Source of the DNA: Girardinichthys multiradiatus
Lineage: Eukaryota > Chordata > Actinopteri > Cyprinodontiformes > Goodeidae
Reading direction: 5' to 3'
NCBI RefSeq assembly: GCF_021462225.1
Contig: NC_061817.1
Location: 12,639,204 to 12,703,203, forward strand
Length of the DNA: 64,000 nucleotides
Shown: positions 1 to 52,806 of the stretch, piece by piece
Numbering within the stretch: position 1 is the stretch's first letter
Layout of the letters: each line of letters begins with the position of its first letter
The notes under the pieces: generated by a model
Databases searched by the model: none
What the model was told of the DNA's origin: nothing
What the model saw: the letters and a program-made list of their open reading frames with translations, nothing else
Made by a program: the position numbers and the translations under genes

Positions 1-825
1 TTAGGCTACATTCAGTTCCAAACCAGAGAAAACATTTGTTCCCGTAAAGATTGATAAAAAGCCAGCGCTGCACTTTAGCGAGAAAGAACTTATGAAACCG
101 CAGTAAACTGCAGCTTTCTGTGGACAAGGATCCCTCGGCTCTCCATGAACTGCCTGGCCGATGTTATGTCACCCTGCTGGGGATGCGGAGGCTGCTGCCG
201 CGGCGGGAGCCAGATGTGAGGACGGTGTTATCGCTTCATATATGTCAAAGATGGAAATGTTACCTTCTACATGAGTCGGTGACTCTCCCGCCACATCTGG
301 GGCTTCAGATATATTGAAATGGCAGCATATTTGTTCTCATCAGGCATTTTAAATCGCGTTGAGGGTGCAGCCTTCTGTAAATCTCCACCACGCAGCCCAC
401 TTCCCCCCGGGTTATGAAAACCAATGGAGAGCTGCCTGCATAAAGGGGCGTGATCAGAGAAATAACATAGGAGACACAGGAGCCGAGTCATGTTTCAAAT
501 CCACTTAAAGAGACCCGAATACAACGTAATAAACAGGCTGGAATAAAAAAAATAACTGCAATTGTTTCCATCAACATTTTAGATACGCCCAATAAAATAC
601 TGGAGAAGTCTTTTACATTTTCATGGATTTTTGTCCTGTACTGACTGGCCTTAGGCAAACAGTATGGTGGGTCCAGTTGCTATTCAGTGTCGGGGCAGAT
701 TTGTCCTGCAAATGTCACATAATGTTTCCTTGAGTTGTTGAACCATGTTGCCTTGATAAGCTGTTATGATTTGTTGTATGAACCTGTCATCGAGTCCTAT
801 ACTACGGTGGCCGGGGGGTGCAAAA

Positions 826-1379
826 CACTTTTACATTTCAGAAAACAAATTTACATTTCAGAAAACATTTTTACATTTCAGAAAACACTTTTACATTTCA
901 GAAAACATTTTACATTTCAGAAAACATTTTTACATTTCAGAAAACACTTTTACATTTCAGAAAACATTTTACATTTCAGAAAACAAATTTACATTTCAGA
1001 AAACATTTTACATTTCAGAAAACAAATTTACATTTCAGAAAACAAATTTACATTTCAGAAAACAAATTTACATTTCAGAAAACAAATTTACATTTCAGAA
1101 AACATTTTACATTTCAGAAAACAAATTTACATTTCAGAAAACAAATTTACATTTCAGAAAACAAATTTACATTTCAGAAAACATTTTACATTTCAGAAAA
1201 CAAATTTACATTTCAGAAAACATTTTTACATTTCAGAAAACAAATTTACATTTCAGAAAACAAATTTACATTTCAGAAAACAAATTTACATTTCAGAAAA
1301 CATTTTTACATTTCAGAAAACAAATTTACATTTCAGAAAACATTTTACATTTCAGAAAACAAATTTACATTTCAGAAAA
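826..1379 (+). repeat. 20-bp minisatellite, 28 units
   Basis: Units of 19-20 bp share the core TTTACATTTCAGAAAAC followed by a variable AAA, ATT or ACT. No unit contains a stop codon in any forward frame, which creates three overlapping open frames of 224-245 codons. These frames have low-complexity, frame-shifted versions of one repeat and are not genes. Confidence 0.95.
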
Positions 1380-1636
1380 TCAACCGGAAAGGGAATGTAC
1401 CAACACTGACCTGGAAGTTAGCCTCAGGGCTGCATCCTTCGAAGGCCGTATTTGTAGACCGATTACGTTACAGCGCGGCGACGAAGGCTGTCCCAATTCA
1501 TGAATCATGACTCCCTCCAAGACAAATGTGTCCTTATTTTGCCCGATTTGAAGGATGGGTCGTGAGTATCCTTCGCGGCCCATCATTTCCCATCATTCAT
1601 TGCGGGTCGAAGTGGATTGGTCAAGCAGGGGAAGCC

Positions 1637-1661
1637 ATGGCGGACCATAGCAACAAAAGCT
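1637..1661 (+). other. Left-arm copy of the 25-nt start-codon exon
   Basis: ATG begins an eight-codon stretch (MADHSNKS) that runs into a strong splice donor (T|GTGAGT) at 1662. The identical exon in the right arm is exon 1 of the Myb-like gene. Here it faces inward towards the transposase. Joining it to an acceptor at 2018-2019 (GATAG) would be in phase with the transposase frame (T plus AT). The splice is inferred only from phase and motifs. Confidence 0.45.
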
Positions 1662-1861
1662 GTGAGTAAATTGTGGAAAATTACACTTTCTGTGGCACAA
1701 ATTAACTTCTACAATGTTTTTAGTGCGGGAATATAACTATGTAGACGTGAAATATCTGCTTGATTTATGTAGACATCGCTTAATTTCAAACGTGCTCCGA
1801 CGGGTTCGGAGTTTTCCGTTCCCGGCGTAGTAACCGGGTCGCCTCGCCAGCCCTATATATA

Positions 1862-1878
1862 TAAGGCCTAACCCTAAC

Positions 1879-1935
<57 letters not shown>

Positions 1936-1942
1936 TAGATAG

Positions 1943-1987
<45 letters not shown>

Positions 1988-1995
1988 TATATAAA
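1862..1995. repeat. TA-rich microsatellite
   Basis: About 130 bp of nearly pure TA dinucleotide with a short GATA interruption. It sits exactly between the inner end of the left arm and the truncated 5' end of the transposase, and so marks the place where the 5' part of that gene is missing. A short CCTAACCC stretch just before it resembles telomere sequence but has only two partial units. Confidence 0.9.
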
Positions 1996-2019
1996 CAACA
2001 ACTTTCAATTTTAAGATAG

Positions 2020-3097
2020 ATGCTATTCGTCACCAGGTCATCTACCGTCTAAAGACCCCTGAGGACTTAAGGCAGTGTCCCGTGAGTTTGCAGGGCTGGC
2101 ACGCCACAGAGTTTTTCTTAAAGCTGTGGGTGCAATTGACGGCTGCCATATCCGCATCAGGTGTCCAAGCAGCCCTGATGGTCAGTGCTACAGGACCAGA
2201 AAACTCTTCCCTTCCATAATCCTGCAAGCAGTTTCTGACCATTGGAGCCATTTTATTGACACGTATGTGGGCTGGCCTGGGTCAGTGCATGACTCTAGGG
2301 TGCTTCGCCACAGCCCACTGTACAGTTTATCCTCCTCCAGGGCATTTTATCCTTGGTGATGGAGGGTACCCATGCCTCCAATATCCACTCCCCCTCATCA
2401 CTCCCTACAAGAGGACAAGACATGGTGTGGGAGCCCAGCGCTTTAACAGCCATCATTCCAGAAACACGCTCTATAACAGAGCCTGTTTTTGGAATGAAGA
2501 AAACCAGATTCAGGGCCATCTCCCTGCAAGCGCTGGAGGTGCACGACACCTTTGTACCTCACGTAAGTTTTGACCTAGATCCATTTTATATATACATTAT
2601 ACATAATATATACACATACACACATATGCACCCTCTTTTAAATTGTTTTCAGGTCATAACAGCATGCACCATCATCCACAACATCTGCCTTGGTGCTGGG
2701 GATGTCATGGCCCCAGAGGATGACCCAGAGGAGACTGTAGAAGAGGATGAGGGTGAGGTTTGGACTGAGGCAGTCAGCGTTGCTCTCTGGCAGAACCAGC
2801 TTTCAGCTGAGGTGTCCACCCTGGAGGAGGTACCACCAGAACATGACTACTGTGTCCAGCCAAGTATAATATTATAGATGTGATTCATTTTTGAGGGGTA
2901 TGACTAATTGTAATATTTTTTGAGAACCATCTTCTAATTCTGCATTTTTCCGATTACCTCTTAGTGATGTAGCAGCCGTCAATTCAGCCAGCCCTTTAAA
3001 CCCACTTGATGGACGATACCGTGGACAGCGGAGAGAGACATCACAAACATCTGCAGACCACCTGTGTGATGCTTCGTTCACCATCCAGAAAGACTAA
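2020..3097 (+). pseudogene. Harbinger DDE transposase (HARBI1-like), frameshifted
   Basis: The translated segments carry the family hallmarks: GAIDGCHIRI with the first catalytic Asp, GWPGSVHDSRVL, FILGDGGYPC with the second Asp, and the region EPVFGMKKTRFR with the Glu, followed by an ITACTIIHNICL helix. Three single-base frame changes are needed to read it, near 2070, near 2325 and near 2460. An intron with canonical ends fits 2563-2652. A last exon at 2973-3097 is in phase and ends in TAA. About 130 residues normally found upstream of the first motif are absent, being replaced by the TA repeat and the left arm. A poly(A) signal follows at 3364. It cannot make a full transposase as it stands. 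Confidence 0.8.
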
Positions 3098-3363
3098 CCA
3101 CAGGTCTCAGTTGCAGCATCCCATCCAAGTCTCTGACCTTGTGAGAGATTTAGCCACACCGCCAGACTTTCTGTTCAGAAAGACATCTGCCTCTTTGTTC
3201 TGTTCAAGAGGTTTTTCCAGGAACCAGTCACTCAAGTTGATCCTGTTGTCGCCGTTGTAAATACTTGTACATAGTTTTATTTTATGCCTTTTGTCTTGTA
3301 ATCTTGATCTGTTTGAATGTTTTCTTCCCCCATTCTGTTTAAAGTGCTGTTTGTATTTTTCAT

Positions 3364-3369
3364 AATAAA
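3364..3369 (+). terminator. Poly(A) signal of the transposase gene
   Basis: AATAAA lies about 270 bp after the predicted transposase stop at 3095-3097. It is about 80 bp from the opposing signal of the Myb-like gene, so the two genes end tail to tail. Confidence 0.6.
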
Positions 3370-3449
3370 TTCTGTTTATAACTTTAAATGAAGTTGATGT
3401 ATTGTTAGATCAAATGGAAATAACATTAGTGACAAAAACAATTTTGAAA

Positions 3450-3455
3450 TTTATT
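3450..3455 (-). terminator. Poly(A) signal of the Myb-like gene
   Basis: The plus strand reads TTTATT, which is AATAAA on the minus strand, 62 bp after the stop codon of the Myb-like gene at 3517. Confidence 0.6.
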
Positions 3456-3516
3456 AGAACACCTTAAAACTTTAAGAAACAATCTGAACAAAACTTAATA
3501 TTTCTTATGTAGCATC

Positions 3517-4986
3517 TTATTTTGGTGCCATTCTTTGGAAAACAGTCTGTCCATTCTTTGTGCCCTCATGTCCTCCCTGATCATCTCCATCATCTCTGTC
3601 CCTCTTTCTTTTCTGACCCCTTCCTGCTGGCTCACTGTCTTCCTTCTCCGTCTGGTTGACCACTGCTCCGCTTGGCCCTGGAGTGTCCTCAGGGATGGAG
3701 GTATTTAGGACAGGAGCTGTTGTGGAAGACCTCTGTCCCAACACCTCATCCATAAGGACAAACCAGGGCCAAGTAGCAGCAGTGGGCTTTTCACTGATTC
3801 CCTCTCCTGACCCTGGATACTTACAATCCTAAAGTTAGATTGAATAAAAAAAAGAGTTGACTAAACAGAGAAACCAACAAGACTTTTAGAAATATTTTTT
3901 TATTTGTGTGTGACATGAGAACTTCTGAACATACTTTAAATTCTTTTCTTTTTTCAAATTGTCCCACATTGTTTTGTCCTGCAAAGGGGGTGACCTTCCC
4001 CTGTTGGTCCATCTTCTCCAGAATTGTCCTAAACCGAAAAAAGTATGTTAATCACTGGATGGATATTTATGAAAGTTAGAAAGATAGGAGTTATTGAAAC
4101 TGGACAGAAACCGACTGCAAAGAATGTTGTTATTGTACCTCCAAGCCATGGTGGCTGGGTTTTTAGCTCCAGTAAAAAGGTGGTGGTTCTCACCCATGAG
4201 CTTAATAAACTGGCCCATCTGCAGCTTTGTAGCTAAACAAAATATGAAAATACCAACAAAAAAAAATCTTGCTTAATATCAGAGCAAAAATAAAGCCTTT
4301 TTTAATTTCACATTTGTCTTAATTTGAAGAAAATATTAAAATATTTCTATGCAAATGTCTAAAACAAGCTCTTTCAAACTTTTAACTTCTTTACTGAGAT
4401 TCACTTACATTTGGAGGTGTATTCCTCGTCGGGTTTACCTGGAATCAGAAATTATAATGCTAACTGAATTATAAATAAACTTTTAAAACATATAGCACAT
4501 TTCTTCATTAAAATTTAATATTGAAAAGCTTATTTATTCTCAATCACACTGTCCAGCGATACAGTTGGATTACATAAAATTGACCATTTATTCTGGTTAA
4601 CCTTAATATCACCTGAAATGTTAAATCGATTTTCAGTAACAATTAAAATAATAACATAAACTGTTAGAAATCACTTGTGTTAAACGTTCACTGTGATGAC
4701 TGCCAGCGGGAGCTTAGTGGCGATAGTCCGGTCAGATCTCTACCGAGCTAGCTCACCTCACCGCCGGTAGGGCTGGCAAGGCGAGCCGGTTACTACGCCC
4801 GGAACGGAAAACTCCGAACCCGTCGGAGCACGTTTGAAATTAAGCGATGTCTAGATAAATCAAGCAGATATTTCACGTCTACATAGTTATATTCCCGCAC
4901 TAAAAACATTGTAGAAGTTAATTTGTGCCACAGAAAGTGTAATTCTCCACAATTTACTCACAGCTTTTGTTGCTATGGTCCGCCAT
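3517..4986 (-). CDS. Harbinger Myb/SANT-like DNA-binding protein, 184 aa
   Basis: In PIF/Harbinger elements this partner protein binds element ends and helps bring the transposase into the nucleus. Five exons fit with consistent phases: 4962-4986, 4409-4438, 4139-4232, 3935-4028 and 3517-3828 (555 nt in all). All four introns have GT and AG ends. Recognisable parts are GQFIKLMGENHHLFTGAKN and EKMDQQGKVTP from the trihelix-type SANT fold, KYPGSGEG, KPTAATWPWFVLMDEVLGQR, an acidic stretch, and a basic tail KRKRDRD that is a likely nuclear localisation signal. The first exon lies inside the right inverted arm. About 16 residues in exon 4 (after KVTP) are out of frame relative to the family, and a second indel restores the frame before the exon ends. 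Whether the protein still binds DNA is uncertain. Confidence 0.7.
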
Positions 4987-6403
4987 GGCTTCCCCTGCTT
5001 GACCAATCCACTTCGACCCGCAATGAATGAGGGGAAATGATGGGCCGCGAAGGATACTCACAACGCATCCTTCAAATCGGGCAAAATAAGGACACATTTG
5101 TCTTGGAGGGAGTCATGATTCATGAATTGGGACAGCCTTCGTCGCCGCGCTGTAACGTAATCGGTCTACAAATACGGCCTTCGAAGGATGCAGCCCCTGA
5201 GGCTAACTTCCGGGTCAGCGTTGGTACATTCCCTTTCCGGTTGATTTTCTGAAATGTAAATTTGTTTTCTGAAATGTAAAATGTTTTCTGAAATGTAAAA
5301 ATGTTTTCTGAAATGTAAATTTGTTTTCTGAAATGTAAAATGTTTTCTGAAATGTAAATTTGTTTTCTGAAATGTAAATTTGTTTTATGAAATGTAAATT
5401 TGTTTTCTGAAATGTAAAATGTTTTCTGAAATGTAAATTTGTTTTCTGAAATGTAAAATGTTTTCTGAAATGTAAATTTGTTTTCTGAAATGTAAAATGT
5501 TTTCTGAAATGTAAAAGTGTTTTCTGAAATGTAAAAATGTTTTCTGAAATGTAAATTTGTTTTCTGAAATGTAAAAGTGTTTTGCACCCCCCGGCCACCG
5601 TAGTATAGGACTCGATGACAGGTTCATACAACAAATCATAACAGCTTATCAAGGCAACATGGTTCAACAACTCAAGGAAACATTATGTGACATTTACAGG
5701 GCAAATCTGCCCCGACACTGAATAGCAACTGGACCCACCATACTGTTTGCCTAAGGCCAGTCAGTACAGGACAAAAATCCATGAAAATGTAAAAGACTTC
5801 TCCAGTATTTTATTGGGCGTATCTAAAATGTTGATGGAAACAATTGCAGTTATTTTTTTATTCCAGCCTGTTTATTACGTTGTATTCGGGTCTCTTTAAG
5901 TGGATTTGAAACATGACTCGGCTCCTGTGTCTCCTATGTTATTTCTCTGATCACGCCCCTTTATGCAGGCAGCTCTCCATTGGTTTTCATAACCCGGGGG
6001 GAAGTGGGCTGCGTGGTGGAGATTTACAGAAGGCTGCACCCTCAACGCGATTTAAAATGCCTGATGAGAACAAATATGCTGCCATTTCAATATATCTGAA
6101 GCCCCAGATGTGGCGGGAGAGTCACCGACTCATGTAGAAGGTAACATTTCCATCTTTGACATATATGAAGCGATAACACCGTCCTCACATCTGGCTCCCG
6201 CCGCGGCAGCAGCCTCCGCATCCCCAGCAGGGTGACATAACATCGGCCAGGCAGTTCATGGAGAGCCGAGGGATCCTTGTCCACAGAAAGCTGCAGTTTA
6301 CCGCGGTTTCATAAGTTCTTTCTCGCTAAAGTGCAGCGCTGGCTTTTTATCAATCTTTACGGGAACAAATGTTTTCTCTGGTTTGGAACTGAATGTAGCC
6401 TAA
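4769..6403 (-). repeat. Right arm of the Harbinger palindrome
   Basis: This is the reverse complement of 1-1854, shorter only because the minisatellite has 17 units. On its inner side the sequence continues without a break into the first intron of the Myb-like gene, so this arm looks like the original context and the left arm like the inverted copy. Confidence 0.9.
5248..5583 (-). repeat. 20-bp minisatellite in the right arm, 17 units
   Basis: Same repeat as at 826-1379 in reverse orientation, flanked by the same unique sequence on both sides. The copy-number difference between arms shows expansion or contraction after the arms were formed. Confidence 0.95.
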
Positions 6404-6572
6404 ATATGTATAGCTATGGACGGTGTTAATCCAAAGCCCCAATTATGATCCAAAAACATGTAGACTGCGGATAAAGAGCAGTAATTGTGGCCCACAGAAG
6501 GTAATTAGGTAAACGATTTGCTGAATAGACATGTTAAACCATATTGTTTGAATAGCACCATCTGATAATTAC

Positions 6573-6686
6573 CTGCATACAGAGTCGGCCCAAGACATAA
6601 GCAAATCCAGCAGCTGCTTAAGGGAAACCAGCCCCCACACCAGCAGGTGGCTCCCAAGAGCATTAAAATGATCCCAGAAGACAGAG
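6573..6686 (-). other. Unassigned exon-like segment
   Basis: On the minus strand a 114-nt segment is bounded by a pyrimidine-rich acceptor (ending TTGTAG) and a donor (CAG|GTAATT). It is open in one frame for 38 residues with a helical look, including LGSHLLVWGLVSLKQLLDLL and ending MSWADSV. It does not match any gene I recognise. It lies between the Harbinger element and a Tc1 element, where an older gene could have been broken up. It may be chance. Confidence 0.3.
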
Positions 6687-6871
6687 CTACAAATGTAAGA
6701 GTAACAGAACCAAGATCGCTCATACAAGAGGAGTATTCTGTTCAATAACCATGCCAGGAATACCTTCTGGGCTCTAGAAGCATGGGACAGTTTCTATAAA
6801 CATTCAAAAAAAATATATCTTAACATTTTATACATGATAAATCTTGTTGTCATAAGTATTATCAGCATATA

Positions 6872-9018
6872 CAGGTCCTTCTCAAAATATTAGCATATTG
6901 TGATAAAGTTCATTATTTTCCATAATGTAATGATGAAAATTTAACATTCATATATTTTAGATTCATTGCACACTAACTGAAATATTTCAGGTCTTTTATT
7001 GTCTTAATACGGATGATTTTGGCATACAGCTCATGAAAACCCAAAATTCCTATCTCACAAAATTAGCATATTTCATCCGACCAATAAAAGAAAAGTGTTT
7101 TTAATACAAAAAACGTCAACCTTCAAATAATCATGTACAGTTATGCACTCAATACTTGGTCGGGAATCCTTTTGCAGAAATGACTGCTTCAATGCGGCGT
7201 AGCATGGAGGCAATCAGCCTGTGGCACTGCTGAGGTCTTATGGAGGCCCAGGATGCTTCGATAGCGGCCTTTAGCTCATCCAGAGTGTTGGGTCTTGAGT
7301 CTCTCAACGTTCTCTTCACAATATCCCACAGATTCTCTATGGGGTTCAGCTCAGGAGAGTTGGCAGGCCAATTGAGCACAGTGATACCATGGTCAGTAAA
7401 CCATTTACCAGTGGTTTTGGCACTGTGAGCAGGTGCCAGGTCGTGCTGAAAAATGAAATCTTCATCTCCATAAAGCTTTTCAGCAGATGGAAGCATGAAG
7501 TGCTCCAAAATCTCCTGATAGCTAGCTGCATTGACCCTGCCCTTGATAAAACACAGTGGACCAACACCAGCAGCTGACAGGGCACCCCAGACCATCACTG
7601 ACTGTGGGTTCTTGACACTGGACTTCAGGCATTTTGGCATTTCCTTCTCCCCAGTCTTCCTCCAGACTCTGGCACCTTGATTTCCGAATGACATGCAGAA
7701 TTTGCTTTCATCCAAAAAAAGTACTTTGGACCACTGAGCAACAGTCCAATGCTGCTTCTCTGTAGCTCAGGTCAGGCGCTTCTGCCGCTGTTTCTGGTTC
7801 AAAAGTGGCTTGACCTGGGGAATGCGGCACCTGTAGCCCATTTCCTGCACACGCCTGTGCACGGTGGCTCTGGATGTTTCTACTCCAGACTCAGTCCACT
7901 GCTTCCGCAGGTCCCCCAAGGTCTGGAATCGGCCCTTCTCCACAATCTTCCTTTGGAAAACAGTCTGTCCATTCTTTGTGCCCTCGTGTCCTCCCTGATC
8001 ATCTCCATCATCTCTGTCCCTCTTTCTTTTCTGACCCCTTCCTGCTGGCTCACTGTCTTCCTTCTCCATCTGGTTGCCCACCGCTCCGCTTGGCCCTGGA
8101 GTGTCCTCAGGGATGGAGGTATTTAGGACAGGAGCTGTTGTGGAAGACCTCTGACCCAACACCTCATCCATAAGGACAAACCAGGGCCAAGTAGCAGCAG
8201 TGGGCTTTTCACTGATTCCCTCTCCTGACCCTGGATACTTACAATCCTAAAGTTAGATTGAATAAAAAAAGAGTTGACTAAACAGAGAAACCAACAAGAC
8301 TTTTAGAAATATTTTTTTATTTGTGTGTGACATGAGAACTTCTGAACATACTTTAAATTCTTTTCTTTTTCAAATTGTCCCACATTGTTTTGTCCTGCAA
8401 AGGGGGTGACCTTCCCCTGTTGGTCCATCTTCTCCAGAATTGTCCTAAACCGAAAGAAGTATGTTAATCACTGGATGGATATTTATGAAAGTTAGAAAGA
8501 TAGGAGTTATTGAAACTGGACAGAAACTGACTGCAAAGAATGTTGTTATTGTACCTCCAAGCCACGGTGGCTGAGTTTTTAGCTCCAGTAAAAAGGTGGT
8601 GGTTCTCACCCATGAGCTTAATAAACTGGCCCGTCTGCGGCTTTGTAGCTAAACAAAATATGAAAATACCAAAAAAAAAGTCTTACCCATGATTGGGGTT
8701 TTGAGTGATGAACCAGGCTGGGAGTTTTAAAGGCCTCAGGAATCTTTTGCAGGTGTTTAGAGTTAACTCGTTGATTCAGATGATTAGGTTCATAGCTCGT
8801 TCAGAGACCCTTTTAATGATATGCTAATTTTGTGAGATAGGAATTTTGGGTTTTCATGAGCTGTATGCCAAAATCATCCGTATTAAGACAATAAAAGACC
8901 TGAAATATTTCAGTTAGTGTGCAATGAATCTAAAATATATGAATGTTAAATTTTCATCATGACATTATGGAAAATAATGAACTTTATCACAATATGCTAA
9001 TATTTTGAGAAGGACCTG
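6872..9018. mobile_element. Chimeric Tc1 element carrying Harbinger Myb-like exons
   Basis: Near-identical terminal inverted repeats of about 205 bp begin CAGGTCCTTCTCAAAATATT and are flanked by TA on both sides, the Tc1/mariner target. An ordinary copy of the same family lies at 14709-16241. Here 7951-8679 is not Tc1. It matches the Harbinger region 3534-4262 with scattered differences and replaces the stretch corresponding to 15712-15900 of the ordinary copy. Both junctions show only 1-2 bp of shared sequence. The ends are intact, so the chimera could be moved as one Tc1 unit if transposase is supplied. Confidence 0.9.
7149..8690 (-). pseudogene. Chimeric Myb-like/Tc1 transposase gene, two lesions
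   Basis: Exons derived from the Harbinger gene lie at 8555-8648, 8352-8444 and 8246 downward. The last continues in frame into Tc1 transposase and ends at 7149. The join reads NGQTVFQR then KIVEKGRFQTLGDL. The Tc1 part keeps the second helix-turn-helix (TSRATVHRRVQEMG) and the catalytic triad in DESKF, QHDLAPAHS and NPIENLW, but the first helix-turn-helix is gone. Two lesions are visible: a stop at 7767-7769 where the sister copy has Trp, and a one-base loss in an A-run that leaves the exon 8352-8444 at 93 instead of 94 nt. The Tc1 start codon at 8690 (ATGG|GTAAGA) would be in phase with the first Myb exon, but the implied 38-nt intron is too short for normal vertebrate splicing, so the start is unresolved. 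Confidence 0.8.
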
Positions 9019-9078
9019 TACTGTCATTTTCAATAAATTAGAATAGTATTTTAAAAAGTAACTCACTTCATATTATAT

Positions 9079-10781
9079 ACAGTGTTTCTTTTTTTACTTT
9101 TACAGAATTAAAAGCCTGAAGCCGGTCCAGGTCAAAGGAGGAGATGGATTGAGCCAATTACAGAACAAAACATGTTAGAGACTTGATAACAGCGTGATAA
9201 TTCAACTTCCAGCAGGACAACAACCCTAAACACCCAGCTTTAGCCACAGTGGGCTTGTTTAGATATAAAACTCCATTCTGTCTGACTGAAAATGGGCTAC
9301 GTTGCAAAGAAGTCTCTAGATGTGTGAAGCTGGTTGGAACATGCCCCACATGACTTAAAGCTGTGCAAACGGGGTTCTCCAAAGCATTGAATAAATACAA
9401 GAGCACACCTCATTTTTCAGATTTTTATTTTAAACTAATTTCAAAATCATGCATCATTGTCCTTCCATTTCACAATTATATACTATTGTGTAAAATCCAT
9501 TAGAGTTTGTGTTTACAAGAAGACAAACTGAAACAGATTCTTTGCAAAGCATTGTACACGACAAGCTCCAAGTTACAGTTCTGCTGCATAGATCAAATTT
9601 AAATTCAATCTTGATTTCATATTTAGCATGTAAAGTGCTCCACGTGCATGTTGAGTATAAAAGCCACATTTCTACAGTGCATACATTCCAGCTCCTATAG
9701 TTGCCAGGGCAACACACAGTCCTATGGTGAATTGCAGGATGGGTGACACTGGGACCCTGGTAGCTGCCAAGCTCCTTTTTGATATGTCCGTTTCTGTTGT
9801 GATGCTCAGCATTTTCTGTAAGTCATCAAAAACCTAATAGGAAAAAAAGCATGTTGGATAAACTCAGCAAGTTGCAAAATGCTTGCTCTGCATACAGAGG
9901 GTTTCAGTTCCTGCTTCTGCCAAATCTAAAGTAACGTGGAGGAGTTTATTAAGCTGTCACCGGTCAGTGACCTCTAACTCTAACTGGGAACCTGCTTGAT
10001 CCCTGTCTCCTCACCCGGATGTTCAGCTCAAACGCTGCCACGGCCTCCTCCAGAACGACCGCCTTCTCCTCCTCGGTCAGCTCCACGCTGTTCATCCGGC
10101 TCCTGTACAGCTGCTTGAAACGGTTGGGGCTGCTCACGCCGGGGAAGGAGAAGAACGACAGCCCCTCTTTGCTGCTCAACCCCAGAGATTTCTGAGTGAT
10201 TTTTCCCAATACTTGTCCGCCTGACAGATCGCCGAGGTAGCGGGTGTAGGCGTGGGCAACGAGTAGCTCAGGGTTGTCTTTGCCAATCTAAAAAAGGAGC
10301 CAAAGGGAATGCTTTTAAATTCAGCTTAGGTAGTGGAAATCTGTTGGTCCCTGAATACATTAGGGATTTTTTGACATGTGCAATGTGGTTCTTTACCCAG
10401 GGCAGCACAGTCTAGAGAGCAAAACAAAGGAAAAATTGCAGTTTTGATTAGCTAGTGGCAGTAGCATCCAGTCAGTGTGTAAGCATTGTAAGCACCTCAC
10501 TAATGATGCAGAGGTTGGTATCTGTTTTAAAAAAGAACATTTATGTCCTTTATTCTGTTTGTAAAAATAAATGGGGGGTGGGGGCTTAGGAGAGGACCAC
10601 CCAGGTTGCTATTCAAGCAAGAACCGCCACTGACTGCAGAACATTTTTACCCACCTTTCTCAGTCTCTGTTCATATCTGTGTGTGGCTGCAGGGACAATC
10701 ACTCTCTTCTTCCAGTCCTGGCCAAAGAAATACTCCAGATCTCTTTCCAGAGATTCCAAGCGGGAAAGTTCCTGAGGGAAG
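9079..10781 (-). repeat. Arm of the hmox1 inverted duplication (functional side)
   Basis: This 1.7-kb block covers the end of hmox1 exon 4 (second half of the 216-nt coding exon), the last two exons, the 3' UTR and about 340 bp beyond. It is repeated in reverse orientation at 16814-18517 with only a handful of base differences, including in introns, so the duplication is recent. Confidence 0.95.
9424..9429 (-). terminator. hmox1 poly(A) signal
   Basis: AATAAA on the minus strand, about 240 bp after the hmox1 stop codon. It is the first such signal downstream. Confidence 0.65.
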
Positions 10782-14708: not shown

Positions 14709-16241
14709 CAGGTCCTTCTCAAAATATTAGCATATTGTTATAAAGTTCATTATTTTCCATAATGTAATGATGAAAATTTAACATTCATATATTTTAGATT
14801 CATTGCACACTAACTGAAATATTTCAGGTCTTTTATTGTCTTAATACGGATGATTTTGGCATACAGCTCATGAAAACCCAAAATTCCTATCTCACAAAAT
14901 TAGCATATTTCATCCGACCAATAAAAAGAAAAGTGTTTTTAATACAAAAAACGTCAACCTTCAAATAATCATGTACAGTTATGCACTCAATACTTGGTTG
15001 GGAATCCTTTGGCAGAAATGACTGCTTCAATGCGGCGTGGCATGGAGGCAATCAGCCTGTGGCAATGCTGAGGTCTTATGGAGGCCCAGGATGCTTCAAT
15101 AGCGGCCTTTAGCTCATCCAGAGTGTTGGGTCTTGAGTCTCTCAACGTTCTCTTCACAATATCCCACAGATTCTCTATGGGGTTCAGGTCAGGAGAGTTG
15201 GCAGGCCAATTGAGCACAGTGATACCATGGTCAGTAAACCATTCACCAGTGGTTTTGGCACTGTGAGCAGGTGCCAGGTCGTGCTGAAAAATTAAATCTT
15301 CATCTCCATAAAGCTTTTCAGCAGATGGAAGCATGAAGTGCTGACACGGCACCCCAGACCATCACTGACTGTGGGAACTTGAAACTGGACTTCTGGCATT
15401 TCCTTCTCCCCAGTCTTCCTCCAGACTCTGGCACCTTGATTTCCGAATGACATGCAGAATTTGCTTTCATCCGAAAAAAGTACTTTGGACCACTGAGCAA
15501 CAGTCCAGTGCTGCTTCTCTGTAGCCCAGGTCAGGCGCTTCTGCCGCTGTTTCTGGTTCAAAAGTGGCTTGACCTGGGGAATGCGGCACCTGTAGCCCAT
15601 TTCCTACACACACCTGTGCACGGTGGCTCTGGATGTTTCTACTCCAGACTCAGTCCACTGCTTCCGCAGGTCCCCCAAGGTCTGGAATCGGCCCTTCTCC
15701 ACAATCTTCCTCAGGGTCCGGTCACCTCTTCTCGTTGTGCAGCATTTTCTGCCACACTTTTTCCTTCCCACAGACTTCCCACTGAGGTGCCTTGATACAG
15801 CACTCTGGGAACAGCCTATTCATTCAGAAATTTCTTTCTGTGTCTTACCCTCTTGCTTGAGGGTGTCAATAGTGGCCTTCTGGACAGCAGTCAGGTCGGC
15901 AGTCTTACCCATGATTGGGATTTTGAGTGATGAACCAGGCTGGGAGTTTTAAAGGCCTCAGGAATCTTTTGCAGGTGTTTAGAGTTAACTCGTTGATTCA
16001 GATGATTAGGTTCATAGCTCGTTTAGAGACCCTTTTAATGATATGCTAATTTTATGAGATAGGAAATTTGGGTTTTCATGAGCTGTATGCCAATAATCAT
16101 CCGTATTAAGACAATAAAAGACCTGAAATATTTCAGTTAGTGTGCAATGAATCTAAAATATATGAATGTTAAATTTTCATCATGACATTATGGAAAATAA
16201 TGAACTTTATCACAATATGCTAATATTTTGAGAAGGACCTG
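14709..16241. mobile_element. Tc1 element, ordinary but defective copy
   Basis: Same family as 6872-9018, with matching inverted ends and TA flanks. It keeps the normal 189-bp segment that the chimeric copy lacks, so it serves as the reference for the swap. Its right end directly meets a fragment of the Harbinger arm. Confidence 0.9.
14987..15912 (-). pseudogene. Tc1 transposase, nonsense and 71-bp deletion
   Basis: Starting at ATG 15912 the product would be a Tc1 transposase with paired-like DNA-binding domain and DDE triad (SDESKF, QHDLAPAHS, NPIENLW). A stop interrupts the first helix-turn-helix where ISERIG is expected. A 71-bp deletion with a 3-bp GCT repeat at its ends removes residues between the first and second catalytic Asp. 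A few further codons are lost before it. Confidence 0.85.
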
Positions 16242-16243
16242 TA

Positions 16244-16813
16244 TAGTACGGTGGCCGGGGGGTGCAAAACACTTTTACAAGTACCGAAACAAATTTACAT
16301 TTCAGAAAACAATTTTACATTTCAGAAAATCAACCGGAAAGGGAATGTACCAACGCCGAGGCTGACCCGGAAGTCAGCCTCAGGGCTGCATCCTTCGAAG
16401 GCCGTATTCGTTGGCCGATTACGTTACAGCGCGGCGACGAAGGCTGTCCCAATTCATGAATAATTCCGAGCAAATGCTGCCGACAAATGTGTCCTTATTT
16501 TGCCCGATTTGAAGGATGGGTCGTGAGTATCCTTCGCGGCCCATCATTTCCCATCATTCATTGCGGGTCGAAGCGGATTGGTCAAGCAGGGGAAGCCATG
16601 GCGGACCATAGCAACAAAAGCTGTGAGTAAATTGTGGAAAATTACACTTTCTGTGACACAAATTAACTTCTACAATGTTTTTAGTGTGGGAATATAACTA
16701 TGTAGACGTTAAATATCTGCTTGATTTATCTAGACATCGCTTAATTTCAAATGTGCTCCAACGTGTTTGGAGTTTTCCGTTCCCGGCGTAGTAACCGGCT
16801 CGCCTCGCCAGCC
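16244..16813 (+). repeat. Third, partial copy of the Harbinger arm
   Basis: It matches 799-1854 of the left arm, but with only two clear minisatellite units. It includes the ATG mini-exon and donor near 16597-16621. Its inner end GCCAGCCC is the same boundary as in the two complete arms, and the next base begins the truncated hmox1 copy. The left part of this fragment is cut by the Tc1 element ending at 16241. Confidence 0.85.
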
Positions 16814-18517
16814 CTTCCCTCAGAAACTTTCCCGCTTGGAATCTCTGGAAAGAGATCTGGAGTATTTCTTTGGCCAGGACTGGAAGAAGAGAGTGATTGT
16901 CCCTGCAGCCACACACAGATATGAACAGAGACTGAGAAAGGTGGGTAAAAATGTTCTGCAGTCAGTGGCGGTTCTTGCTTGAATAGCAACCTGGGTGGTC
17001 CTCTCCTAAGCCCCCACCCCCCATTTATTTTTACAAACAGAATAAAGGACATCAATGTTTTTTTTTTAAACAGATACCAACCTCTGCATCATTAGTGAGG
17101 TGCTTACAATGCTTACACACTGACTGGATGCTACTGCCACTAGCTAATCAAAACTGCAATTTTTCCTTTGTTTTGCTCTCTAGACTGTGCTGCCCTGGGT
17201 AAAGAACCACATTGCACATGTCAAAAAATCCCTAATGTATTCAGGGACCAACAGATTTCCACTACCTAAGCTGAATTTAAAAGCATTCCCTTTGGCTCCT
17301 TTTTTAGATTGGCAAAGACAACCCTGAGCTACTCGTTGCCCACGCCTACACCCGCTACCTCGGCGATCTGTCAGGCGGACAAGTATTGGGAAAAATCACT
17401 CAGAAATCTCTGGGGTTGAGCAGCAAAGAGGGGCTGTCGTTCTTCTCCTTCCCCGGCGTGAGCAGCCCCAACCGTTTCAAGCAGCTGTACAGGAGCCGGA
17501 TGAACAGCGTGGAGCTGACCGAGGAGGAGAAGGCGGTCGTTCTGGAGGAGGCCGTGGCAGCGTTTGAGCTGAACATCCGGGTGAGGAGACAGGGATCAAG
17601 CAGGTTCCCAGTTAGAGTTAGAGGTCACTGACCGGTGACAGCTTAATAAACTCCTCCACGTCACTTTAGATTTGGCAGAAGCAGGAACTGAAACCCTCTG
17701 TATGCAGAGCAAGCATTTTGCAACTTGCTGAGTTTATCCAACATGCTTTTTTTCCTATTAGGTTTTTGATGACTTACAGAAAATGCTGAGCATCACAACA
17801 GAAACGGACATATCAAAAAGGAGCTTGGCAGCTACCAGGGTCCCAGTGTCACCCATCCTGCAATTCACCATAGGACTGTGTGTTGCCCTGGCAACTATAG
17901 GAGCTGGAATGTATGCACTGTAGAAATGTGGCTTTTATACTCAACATGCACGTGGAGCACTTTACATGCTAAATATGAAATCAAGATTGAATTTAAATTT
18001 GATCTATGCAGCAGAACTGTAACTTGGAGCTTGTCATGTACAATGCTTTGCAAAGAGTCTGTTTCAGTTTGTCTTCTTGTAAACACAAACTCTAATGGAT
18101 TTTACACAATAGTATATAATTGTGAAATGGAAGGACAATGATGCATGATTTTGAAATTAGTTTAAAATAAAAAATCTGAAAAATGAGGTGTGCTCTTGTA
18201 TTTATTCAATGCTTTGGAGAACCCCGTTTGCACAGCTTTAAGTCATGTGGGGCATGTTCCAACCAGCTTCACACATCTAGAGACTTCTTTGCAACGTAGC
18301 CCATTTTCAGTCAGACAGAATGGAGTTTTATATCTAAACAAGCCCACTGTGGCTAAAGCTGGGTGTTTAGGGTTGTTGTCCTGCTGGAAGTTGAATTATC
18401 ACGCTGTTATCAAGTCTCTAACATGTTTTGTTCTGTAATTGGCTCAATCCATCTCCTCCTTTGACCTGGACCGGCTTCAGGCTTTTAATTCTGTAAAAGT
18501 AAAAAAAGAAACACTGT
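16814..18517 (+). pseudogene. Inverted, 5'-truncated hmox1 copy
   Basis: Contains the second part of hmox1 exon 4 (16815-16940) and the last two exons (17308-17580 and 17762-17923) with intact splice sites, stop codon and 3' UTR including a poly(A) signal. The promoter and first exons, including the heme-ligand His31, are absent. Coding differences are minimal, for example Glu to Lys in FPQEL. It breaks on the left against the Harbinger arm fragment with 2 bp of shared sequence and on the right against LINE debris. Without the N-terminal heme-binding helix it cannot encode a working oxygenase, though transcription from the adjacent arm sequence is conceivable. Confidence 0.92.
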
Positions 18518-41400: not shown

Positions 41401-44400
41401 GATGCACCGAGCAACCAGTTGGTGATTGGAAGAGACTGATTTTTCAACTCCATCCACGTGGGATGAGACTTCAGGGGATGACAGGAGGTTGAACGTTTTA
41501 CAGCAAAGCAGTTCTGTTTGTCACGTTCTGTAGATGTTTGGGTTTTGGTTTTCTTTTTGGTTTAATTTCTTGTATGTTGCTTATGGATTCTTTTTGTTTA
41601 TTTTCTGTTAGATGTGTAAGATTTTTCCCCTTGTGTTTCTGTTCAGCTTAATTTAGGTTTATTTATTCCCACAGCTGTGTAACACAGACTGCACTCTCAC
41701 ACACACAGTTTGACATCACCTCTACTCCTAATGTAGAAAAATAATGTTCAATCCCAGGCTTTCTGAAGTTTCTGTACAGTTACACTAAATCAATAAACAA
41801 TTTAACAATTTAAGACTTAAAAGAAAACCAGAGCTTTTTCTCTTAAAAATAAACTTGGACACTGTGGTTATTTATTTTTGAACGAAATTTGAAAATACTG
41901 AATACCTTATATATATACAGTACAGACCAAAAGTTTGGACACACCTTCTCATTAAAAGAGTTTTCTTTATTTTCATGACTATGAATATTGTAGCTTCACA
42001 CTGAACACATCAAAACTATGAATTAACACATGTTGAATTATATACTGAACAAAAAAGTGTGAAACAACTGAAAATATGTCTTATATTCTAGGTTCTTCAA
42101 AGTAGCCACCTTTTGCTTTGATTACTGCTCCGCACACTCTTGGCATTCTGTTGATGAGCTTCAAGAGGTAGTCACCTGAAATGGTTTTCCAACAGTCTTA
42201 AAGGAGTTCCCAGAGATGCTTAGCACTTGTTGGCCCTTTTGCCTTCACTCTGCCATGCTGGTTCAATATGCCTTCAATTTTGAATAAATCCACAACAGTG
42301 TCACCAGCAAAGCAACCCCACACCATCACACCTCCTCCTCCATGCTTCACGGTGGGAACCAGGCATGTAGAGTCCATCCGTTCACCTCTTCTGCGCCGCA
42401 CAAAGACACGGTGGTTGGAACCAAAGATCTCAAACTTGGACTCATCAGACCGAAGCACAGATTTCCACTGGTCTAATGTCCATTCCTTGTGTTCTTTAGC
42501 CCAAACAAGTCTCTTCTGCTTGTTGCCTGTCCTCAGCAGTGGTTTCCTAGCAGCTATTTTACCATGAAGGCCTGATTCACACAGTCTCCTCTTAACAGTT
42601 GTTCTAGAGATGTGTCTGCTGGTAGAACTCTGTGTGGCATTGACCTGTTCTCTAATCTGAGCTGCTGTTAACCTGCGATTTCTGAGGCTGGTGACTCGGA
42701 TGAACTTATCGTCCGCAGCAGAGGTGACTCTTGGTCTTCCTTTCCTGGGGCGGTCCTCACGTGAGCCAGTTTCTTTATAGCACTTGATGGTTTTTGCGAC
42801 TGCACTCGGGGACACTTTCAAAGTTTTTCCAATTGTTCGGACTGACTGACCTTCATTTCTTAAAGTAATGATGGCCACTCGTTTTTCTTTACTTAGCTGC
42901 TTTTTTCTTGCCATAATACACATTCTAACCGTCTATTCAGTAGGACTATCAGCTGTGCACTGTATCCACCTCCTGCACAACACAACTGACGGTCCCAACC
43001 CCATTTATAAGGCTTTAAATCCCACTTATTAAACCTGACAGGGCACACCTGTGAAGTGAAAACCATTTCAGGTGACTACCTCTTGAAGCTCATCAACAGA
43101 ATGCCAAGAGTGTGCGGAGCAGTAATCAAAGCAAAAGGTGGCTACTTTGAAGAACCTAGAATATAAGACATATTTTCAGTTGTTTCACACTTTTTTGTTC
43201 AGTATATAATTCCACATGTGTTAATTCATAGTTTTGATGCCTTCAGTGTGAAGCTACAATATTCATAGTCATGAAAATAAAGAAAACTCTTTGGGAAGGT
43301 GTGTCCAAACTCTTGGTCTGTACTGTATATATATATTTTTTTAGGTATTCAAAAAAGCAAAAGGTTAAAAGGAGATTAAAGTAGGAGAAGAGATATGCTA
43401 TAATTATTTATGGTTGGATTTTATTTTAAACAGTGCTGTAAAAAAACATTGGCCCCTTATAGATTTGTGATGGTTTGTAATGTCCTTAGGAAAGTTTAAT
43501 ATCAGAAAAAGATAACCTGAGTAAATACAATATTTTCCATTTATGACTTCAACAGCTATTTCTTTGAGCCATTCTGAGGTGGACCTGCTGATGTCCTCTA
43601 GATCACCCTCCTGCTGCATAACTGGTGGACTTGTGCTTGAGGCTACTGACATTCTGACATTCTCCTTTAGGATTTTCTGCTAAAGAGCAAAATTCATGTC
43701 CCCATCAATTATGGAAAGTCCTCCAGGTTTTGAAACAGCACAGCAGCCCCACACCATCATTCTACCATCACCATTTTTAACTGTTGGCATGATGTTTAAT
43801 GCTGTGTTTAATCAAAAGCAGATAGAATGGGACACGCACTCTCTAAAAATGTTCCACTTCTGTCTCTTCAGTCGATAGACTATTTTCCCAAAAGTCTTGG
43901 GGATCATTAAGATGCTTCTATCAGCAGTAGATTTGGCCTCGGAACTCTCCCATGGATGACATTTTGCCCAGTCTCTTTCTTACTGTTGACTTATGAACTC
44001 TGACCTTACTGAGGCAAGTGAGGCTTGCTGTATTTTAGATGTTCTGGGTTCTTTGTCACCTCCTGGAGGAGTTGTTGATGTGCTCTTGGATTCATTTTGA
44101 TAGGACGGCCACTCATGAGAAGGTTCACCACTGTTCTATGTTTTCTTCACAAATCAAACATGGAATAGATTGAACTGCGGTTAACCAGAGTCAAAAAGTT
44201 CAAAAACGAACTGGCGCTGTAGCCCTTTCCAGGCAGATAGATGTTAGTGACTTTCTTTCAGAACTATTCTTAACATTCTTCACATCAGGGCATGGCGTGT
44301 TATTTTTTGAGACCTTTCAGCCTACCTAATGTTGTTAGACAGGTTCTGTTTAAGTGGTTTTTTGATTCTACAGAACTGACGGTTCTCAGGCATGGGTGCG

Positions 44401-51129: not shown

Positions 51130-52806
51130 TCAGGTGCGCTGGATGACGGGTGTCAGAACCCGGTGGTGGACACCGGCAGTAAGGGATGCTGTTAAGCTGA
51201 AGAAGGAGTCCTATTGGCTGTGGTTGGCTTGTGGGACTCCTGAGGCGGCTGACGGGTACCGTGAGGCCAAGCGTGCTGCGGCCCGGGCTGTGGCAGAGGC
51301 AAAAACTCGGGCCTGGGAAGAGTTCGGTGAGGCCATGGAGAAGGACTACCGGTTGGCCTCGAAGCGATTCTGGCAAACCGTCCGGCGCCTCAGGAGGGGG
51401 AAGCAGTGCTTTGCCAACACTGTTTATAGTGGGGGCAGGAGACTGCTGACCTCGACTGAGGACATTATCGGGCGGTGGAAGGAGTACTTCGAGGATCTCC
51501 TCAATCCTGCCATCATGCATTCCACGGTGGAAACAGAGGCTGGGACTCTTTCATCACCCAGGCTGAAGTCACCGAGGTGGTTAAAAAGCTCCGCGGTGGC
51601 AAGGCTTCGGGGGTGGATGAGATCCGCCCAGAGTACCTCAAGTCTCTGGATGTTTTATGGCTGTCATGGTTGACACGCCTCTTCAACATTGCGTGGCGAT
51701 CGGGGACAGTGCCTCTGGACTGGCAGACTGGGGTGGTGGTCCCCCTTTATAAGAAGGGGGACCGGAGGGTGTGTTCCAACTACAGGGGGATCACACTCCT
51801 CAGCCTCCCTGGTAAGGCCTACGCCAGGGTATTGGAGAGGAGAGTCCGACCGATAGTCGAACCTCGGCTTCAGGAGGAGCAGTGTGGTTTTCGTCCCGGC
51901 CGTGGAACACTGGACCAGCTCTATACCCTCTACAGGGTGCTCGAGGGTTCATGGGAGTTTGCCCAACCGGTTCACATGTGTTTTGTGGACCTGGAGAAGG
52001 CATTCGACTGTGTCCCTCGTGATGCCCTGTGGGGGGTGCTCCAGGAGTATGGAATCGGGGGCCCTTTATTAGGGGCCATCCGGTCCCTGTACGAGCGGAG
52101 CAGGAGTTTGGTTCGCATTGCCGGCACTAAGTCGGACCTGTTCCCGGTGCATGTTGGACTCCGGCAGGGCTGCCCTTTGTCACCGGTCCTGTTCATAACT
52201 TTTATGGACAGGATTTCTAGATGCAGCCAAGGGCTGGAGGGGGTCTGGTTTGGGGACCAGTGGATTTCGTCTCTTCTTTTTGTGGATGACGTGGTCCTGC
52301 TGGCCCCCTCTAGCCAAGACCTACAGCATGCGCTGGGATGAGGATCAAGTCCTCCAAGTCCGAGGCCATGGTACTCGACCGGAAAAGGGTGGCTTGTCCT
52401 CTTCAGGTTGGAGGGGAGTTCCTGCCTCAAGTGGAGGAGTTTAAGTATCTCGGGGTCTTGTTCACGAGTGAGGGAAGAATGGAGCGGGAGATCGACAGAC
52501 GGATCGGTGCGGCTGCCACAGTAATGGGGGCGCTGTACCGGTCCGTTGTGGTGAAGAGAGAGCTGAGCCGAAAAGCAAAGCTCTCAATTTACTGGTCGGT
52601 CTACGTTCCTACCCTCACCTATGGCCATGACCGAAAGAACGAGATCCCGGATACAAGCGGCTGAAATGAGCTGGAGGGACTATGTCTCTCGTCTGGCCAG
52701 GGAACGCCTTGGGCTCCCCCTGGAGGAACTGGAGGAGGTGTCTGGAGAGAGGGACGTCTGGATAAGCGGAAGACGACGAGTACGAGTACATTTTTGTGAT
52801 GAATAA
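51130..52806 (+). pseudogene. LINE reverse transcriptase, internally deleted
   Basis: Encodes a non-LTR reverse transcriptase core over two frames: VVVPLYKKGDRRVCSNYRGI, LLSLPGKAYARVLERR, EEQCGFRPGRGTLDQLY, CFVDLEKAFDCVPR, VGLRQGCPLSPVLF and the catalytic box LLFVDDVVLL. One frame change is at about 51540. Two deletions remove codons after DLQHALG (52339) and after LTYGH (52628), so the thumb and connection regions are damaged. The clade is not resolved here. The same family left a fragment at 18857-19330. Confidence 0.85.

Follow-up and report, generated by a model that had tools for sequence, protein, structure and literature searches.

A transposon whose transposase gene has been rebuilt with coding sequence from another superfamily may be either a new protein in the making or a dead product of DNA repair, and this is the question raised by an element of the fish Girardinichthys multiradiatus in which Tc1 and Harbinger sequences are joined. 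The element lies in a 64,000-nucleotide stretch of contig NC_061817.1, which was analysed at its full length and is referred to here as the window. It is present on two chromosome-scale sequences, C24, which contains the window, and C25, and its two versions are spoken of below as the window (C24) allele and the C25 allele. The structure itself, in which Harbinger Myb-gene sequence stands in for a portion of the Tc1 transposase N-terminus, is confirmed. With high probability the element is a dead Tc1 copy, restricted to a single locus, bearing a filler patch that was derived from a neighbouring Harbinger element through local repair.

Structure of the chimeric element and its surroundings

The 200-bp ends of the element are 100% complementary when rounded (one mismatch in 202 by BLAST), and each is bordered by a TA dinucleotide (Table 1). 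An empty site, GACAG-TA-TATGCTG, with one TA, no Tc1 and matching flanks, is found at window positions -486..-447 in the other arm of the palindrome, and the TA flanks of the chimera are therefore a true target-site duplication. The intact Tc1 ends and TA flanks described in an earlier note on this DNA are thereby borne out. The translation, read with X at the stop, retains Tc1 domain sequence in the form of HTH_Tnp_Tc3_2 (PF01498, E 1.7e-11) and DDE_3 (PF13358, E 2.5e-19; both by Pfam), so that by its terminal inverted repeats, its TA duplication and both of these domains the element belongs with the Tc1-like transposons. The uninterrupted transposase frame of an autonomous Tc1 is missing, as there is a stop in both alleles and a frameshift in the window allele.

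Between the ends, 189 bp coding for the N-terminal part of the Tc1 transposase have been replaced by a 726-bp segment of a Myb/SANT-like gene from Harbinger, close to the figure of about 729 bp first proposed. The insert corresponds to exons 2-4 with their two intervening introns at 3535-4262, in agreement with the three exons and two introns recognized previously, the exon borders being those of the splice model used in this analysis. Both joints display overlaps of 1-2 bp (CT at the left joint, A at the right one). The fusion, likewise claimed to be in frame, is so at the C-terminal junction, and the last exon of 366 codons with a single stop is recovered as described, provided that the terminator is included in the count and that the stop is understood as the internal TGA.

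Table 1. Features of the chimeric element and of two related copies in the window
Feature	Position	Strand	Remarks
Chimeric Tc1 element	6872..9018	- (coding sense on minus strand)	2147 bp
TA target-site duplication, left copy	6870..6871	.	empty site with single TA
Tc1 terminal inverted repeat, left	6872..7071	.	pairs with 8819-9018
Tc1 part still present: 3' end and the region coding for the second HTH (HTH_Tnp_Tc3_2) and DDE_3	6872..7952	-	99% to ordinary copies; PF01498, PF13358
Fused last exon: Myb C-terminus in frame to Tc1 second HTH and DDE	7149..8246	-	366 codons including terminator
Premature TGA, codon 129 of native Tc1 transposase	7767..7769	-	changed base in 10/38 ordinary copies
Captured Harbinger Myb-gene fragment, exons 2-4 with two introns between	7953..8678	-	borders uncertain by 1-2 bp overlap
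Myb exon 3, with indels disrupting the recognition-helix region	8352..8444	-	lacks one base beside 8365 relative to C25/neighbour
Myb exon 2: helix 1 without leading Trp, helix 2	8555..8648	-	protein alignment, splice model
Hypothetical 38-nt intron GTAAGA...TTTAG	8649..8686	-	would join Tc1 ATGG in frame with Myb exon 2
5' end of the Tc1 still present, including its start codon (ATG, 8690-8688)	8679..9018	-	match to ordinary copies
Tc1 terminal inverted repeat, right	8819..9018	.	pairs with 6872-7071
TA target-site duplication, right copy	9019..9020	.	empty site with single TA
Probable donor: homologous Myb-gene stretch in neighbouring Harbinger element	3535..4262	-	98% to 7953-8678
Ordinary, internally deleted Tc1 sister copy with native N-terminal region	14709..16243	-	sequence match

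The recipient can be compared with its ordinary relatives in the searched genome (1.15 Gb in 72 contigs), where a family member measures 1610 bp, as judged from five copies with both ends located. Forty of 2527 candidate places were scored as whole elements, chosen by likeness to the chimera; the insert is spanned by two of them, and the other 38, all non-chimeric, constitute the set of ordinary copies used here. Their identity to the chimera is 99% over 6872-7952 and 98-100% over most of 8679-9018, the 189 bp lying between both parts, and a 334-aa frame is intact in 21 of the 38.

Two large inverted duplications lie side by side in this part of the window. The first (-492..1164 and 5241..6897, 98.1%) surrounds a Harbinger-like element at about 803-5607, its ends placed by eye, in which a repeat of ~20 bp (TTTACATTTCAGAAAACA) forms long subterminal arrays within the ends, at 798-1425 and 5186-5620. 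The second (9079-10781 and 16814-18517, 99.5%) surrounds an internally deleted Tc1 copy together with a Harbinger end fragment at 16246-16815. Farther along, a second and different Tc1-like element (41955-43292) has 235-bp inverted ends and a transposase-like ORF at 42198-42923 that looks truncated by eye, and ORFs at 51134-52341 resemble, by eye from their translations, a LINE-type reverse transcriptase fragment.

An apparently single locus and a probable neighbouring donor

The exact 37-bp left junction of the chimera is also present on C25 and is thus no isolated error of single bases. A search of the whole genome with this pattern, allowing up to 3 mismatches, returned two matches, the window on C24 and C25:13124156, and no further chimera locus beyond this pair, while the control search with the pattern read backwards returned none. 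Over 5148 bp the two places differ by a single indel, and the collinear stretches in which they are embedded add up to about 100 kb, with 98.8-99.4% identity. Among the 38 ordinary Tc1 copies, 20-bp flanks are common to two pairs, L026/L027 and L048/L049, and to no other; both are C24/C25 pairs and keep the same order on the two sequences. The paired Tc1 insertions between C24 and C25 sit about 4 Mb apart. Judged from these alignments, C24 and C25 are most likely the two homologues of one chromosome pair, possibly an X and a Y or two haplotypes of one chromosome. Given the collinearity and the confinement of flank-sharing to C24/C25 pairs, the chimera is counted as one locus, and a multi-copy chimeric family, having one locus by the left junction, is rejected. 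The search for several copies sharing the junctions in this genome, which the earlier note had proposed, thus ends at one place for the left junction. Of the possibility raised there that the chimera exists only once and without a target-site duplication, the first half stands by the left junction, whereas the second does not, as the element has a duplication of its own. Uniqueness is here a property of the left junction and of the two insert-spanning places among the 40 scored, and a partial form carrying only the right junction is possible.

The source of the insert is indicated by its likeness to other Harbinger copies, of which 40 of 937 candidates were scored. The best non-self match among these is the Myb-gene stretch of the neighbouring Harbinger element, located 3.7 kb away in the same orientation, along with its C25 twin (98%, 1243 bits), followed by a copy 208 kb away with its C25 counterpart (97%, 1196 bits) and then by copies at 94-96%. 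An alignment of the insert and the neighbour (both alleles each) with the 7 next copies, from which the C25 counterpart was left out, contains 29 columns in which insert, neighbour and the majority state among the 7 further copies are not all alike. Insert and neighbour stand together against this majority in 15 of them (14 bases and a gap), the neighbour alone departs in 9, the insert departs in 4 (one in the C24 allele only) and 1 is unclear. Seven bases are common to insert and neighbour and absent from all 7 further copies; in the reverse test, the insert exclusively shares at most one base with any further copy (one each with L057 and L063, none with the other five). An origin from a distant Harbinger copy is rejected in view of the best scored match and the 7 exclusively shared bases, and the neighbouring copy is the probable donor. 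Insert and neighbour nevertheless differ by 12 mismatches in 726 bp, and the donor may have been a close relative that has since been lost.

The account that best joins these observations begins with a Tc1 of the young 1610-bp family that inserted at a TA near the Harbinger element. A break would then have arisen inside the Tc1, most simply through failed excision and gap repair or through stalled replication at this palindrome-rich locus, and repair synthesis would have switched template to the neighbouring Harbinger before the product was joined back into the Tc1. A pseudogene fragment, its Myb sequence degenerate already in the donor copies, would in this manner have landed in a dead element, with no sign of later spread. 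Excision-gap repair and replication-based switching are both compatible with the joints and the nearby donor, and the palindromes around the locus are compatible with a history of template-switch events. Set against local repair are the in-frame C-terminal junction and the in-frame splice option discussed below, which are what a functional gene would show, together with the weak Myb match of the C25-allele protein and the extent of sampling, at 40 of 2527 Tc1 and 40 of 937 Harbinger candidates.

An alternative is that a Tc1 of the Pack-TYPE kind captured the Harbinger fragment elsewhere and that the carrier then jumped to its present position. Such a history accommodates the fragment inside intact Tc1 ends, the true TA duplication and the known empty site, and plant Pack-Mariner elements are described in passages of PMC8903248. 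It is considered unlikely, however, as the left junction reveals no second locus and as capture elsewhere does not predict that the closest scored donor would be found 3.7 kb away in the same orientation. Less likely still is an assembly artefact joining Tc1 and Harbinger reads. Misjoins are common in repeat-rich, palindromic regions, and the region is of this nature, but the same junction occurs on two chromosome-scale sequences (possibly not fully independent assemblies) that differ by one indel over 5.1 kb, and with 12 base differences the insert is no plain copy of the neighbour.

Coding capacity of the fused gene

The premature TGA in the Tc1 part is present in both alleles, at a site outside CpG context, and cuts the protein before the catalytic (DDE) domain. 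A stop private to the chimera is rejected, since its base is found in 10 of the 38 ordinary copies (9 of 36 when each C24/C25 pair counts once); for the same reason the stop, which appears to circulate in the Tc1 family, was probably inherited by the chimera. The four-gamete test failed for 438 of 1596 non-CpG site pairs among 36 Tc1 copies (drawn from L003-L008 and L025-L056, with one per C24/C25 pair removed), mostly for pairs less than 200 bp apart and possibly with alignment errors included. These failures hint at sequence exchange among copies and suggest that the young family is mosaic, and because of this mosaic appearance the stop may instead have entered the chimera by conversion after capture.

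The captured Myb part is degenerate. It is devoid of exon 1, and hence of the leading Trp of helix 1, and its helix 3 reads GQNNVGQFEKRKEFK in the C25 allele versus KKKWDNLKKKYK in intact relatives, so the third-helix motif is absent; W[DE]N[LM] occurs in 68 of 122 Myb relatives, some of them partial. The C25-allele Myb gives a weak full-length match to PF13837 (Myb_DNA-bind_4) of 14.3 bits (E 0.057), under the cut-off of 27. The intact fish relatives P0004 and P0008 score 45.3 and 51.7, and P0001 and P0003, both from Ameca splendens, fall just under the cut-off with 26.3 and 24.5. At the protein level, the Myb gene has its nearest relatives in the goodeid fishes Ameca, Characodon, Ilyodon and Goodea. 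With helix 3 scrambled and the PF13837 score under the cut-off, an intact Myb domain in the chimera is rejected. A DNA motif with an apparently extra base ahead of helix 3 is found in all 8 donor-type copies checked, namely the neighbour and 7 others, and the damage to helix 3 is therefore older than the capture. The window allele, in addition, is one base shorter than C25 beside 8365, which puts its spliced Myb exons out of frame; the spliced model is open for 104 aa in this allele versus 223 aa in the C25 allele, and the C25 product ends before the DDE domain.

Translation of the fusion from the Tc1 start would also require an unusual splice. The only in-frame link found runs from ATGG over GTAAGA...TTTAG to CTACAAAG and needs an intron of 38 nt, and vertebrate introns are usually longer. 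An in-frame C-terminal junction and an in-frame splice option are each expected by chance in one case of three. Twelve fish proteins of fusion-like length that match the Myb region, retrieved with an approximate query, are all listed without DDE_3, and a Pfam rescan of 7 of the 12 likewise found DDE_3 in none; Myb-Tc1 fusion proteins in other fishes are rejected on this ground.

It is extremely improbable, then, that the element represents a functional swap in which a Harbinger Myb domain replaces the first paired-like subdomain of a Tc1 transposase and confers new recognition of ends or targets: although its C-terminal junction is in frame, its ends and TA duplication are intact and a splice option leads in frame from the Tc1 start codon, it occupies one locus by the left junction, bears before the DDE domain of both alleles a stop shared with 10 of 38 ordinary copies, has a scrambled Myb recognition helix under the Pfam cut-off and a frameshift in the window allele, requires a 38-nt intron, and has no counterpart with DDE_3 among the 12 fusion-length proteins. 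The proposal in the earlier note that the chimera could change target recognition is not supported in view of the single locus, the stop, the degenerate Myb, the window frameshift and a donor only 3.7 kb away. The chimera is predicted from its sequence to encode no complete transposase and to be movable in trans alone. Truncated transposases of other families can repress in trans, and a comparable role for the C25-type 223-aa protein, in which a degenerate Myb and the second Tc1 HTH would bind Tc1 ends and repress the young Tc1 family, is scarcely to be expected.

Comparison with known systems

Passages of PMC3878927 describe how the gaps left by excision of Tc1 and other elements are repaired by a homology-dependent route (SDSA), and incomplete repair is also proposed there for Ac/Ds derivatives. 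Like the derivatives of incomplete gap repair in Tc1, P and Ac/Ds, as far as those passages portray them, the chimera has an internal segment replaced, its ends intact and overlaps of 1-2 bp at the joints. Unlike them, it has taken up, in addition to the loss of 189 bp, a patch of 726 bp whose source is a nearby element belonging to a different superfamily.

That TIR transposons of plants can take up foreign coding DNA between their ends is described in passages of PMC8903248, and the Pack-TYPE elements treated there (Pack-MULE, Pack-CACTA and Pack-Mariner) share with the chimera foreign coding sequence enclosed by intact terminal inverted repeats. The chimera differs in that it keeps most of its own transposase gene, its cargo comes from another transposon and one locus was found. 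Captured foreign DNA does lie between intact ends, but movement of the carrier with its cargo was not seen, there being one locus by the left junction and a likely donor 3.7 kb away. Among the papers listed by literature searches, judged on titles and abstract openings, none deals with a Tc1 element that carries part of a Harbinger Myb gene.

The second ORF of PIF/Harbinger elements is Myb-like. The two-ORF layout of these elements is described in passages of PMC9179366, and the insert represents part of a separate Myb-like gene of this type, whose intact fish relatives contain PF13837. In contrast to these, the fragment is without exon 1 and has its third helix scrambled, as in the donor-type copies checked. 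Several intact copies would have meant a natural swap of DNA-binding domains between two transposon superfamilies; the chimera is instead a well-resolved case of sequence exchange between nearby transposons, in which about 10 kb hold the recipient, its probable donor, the unoccupied target site and the two joints with their overlaps of 1-2 bp. In host-transposase fusion genes, a DNA-binding region is joined in frame to transposase sequence. The chimera resembles them in the joining of a DNA-binding region and transposase sequence, but both of its partners are transposon sequences and its frame is broken, and it cautions against equating an in-frame junction with function.
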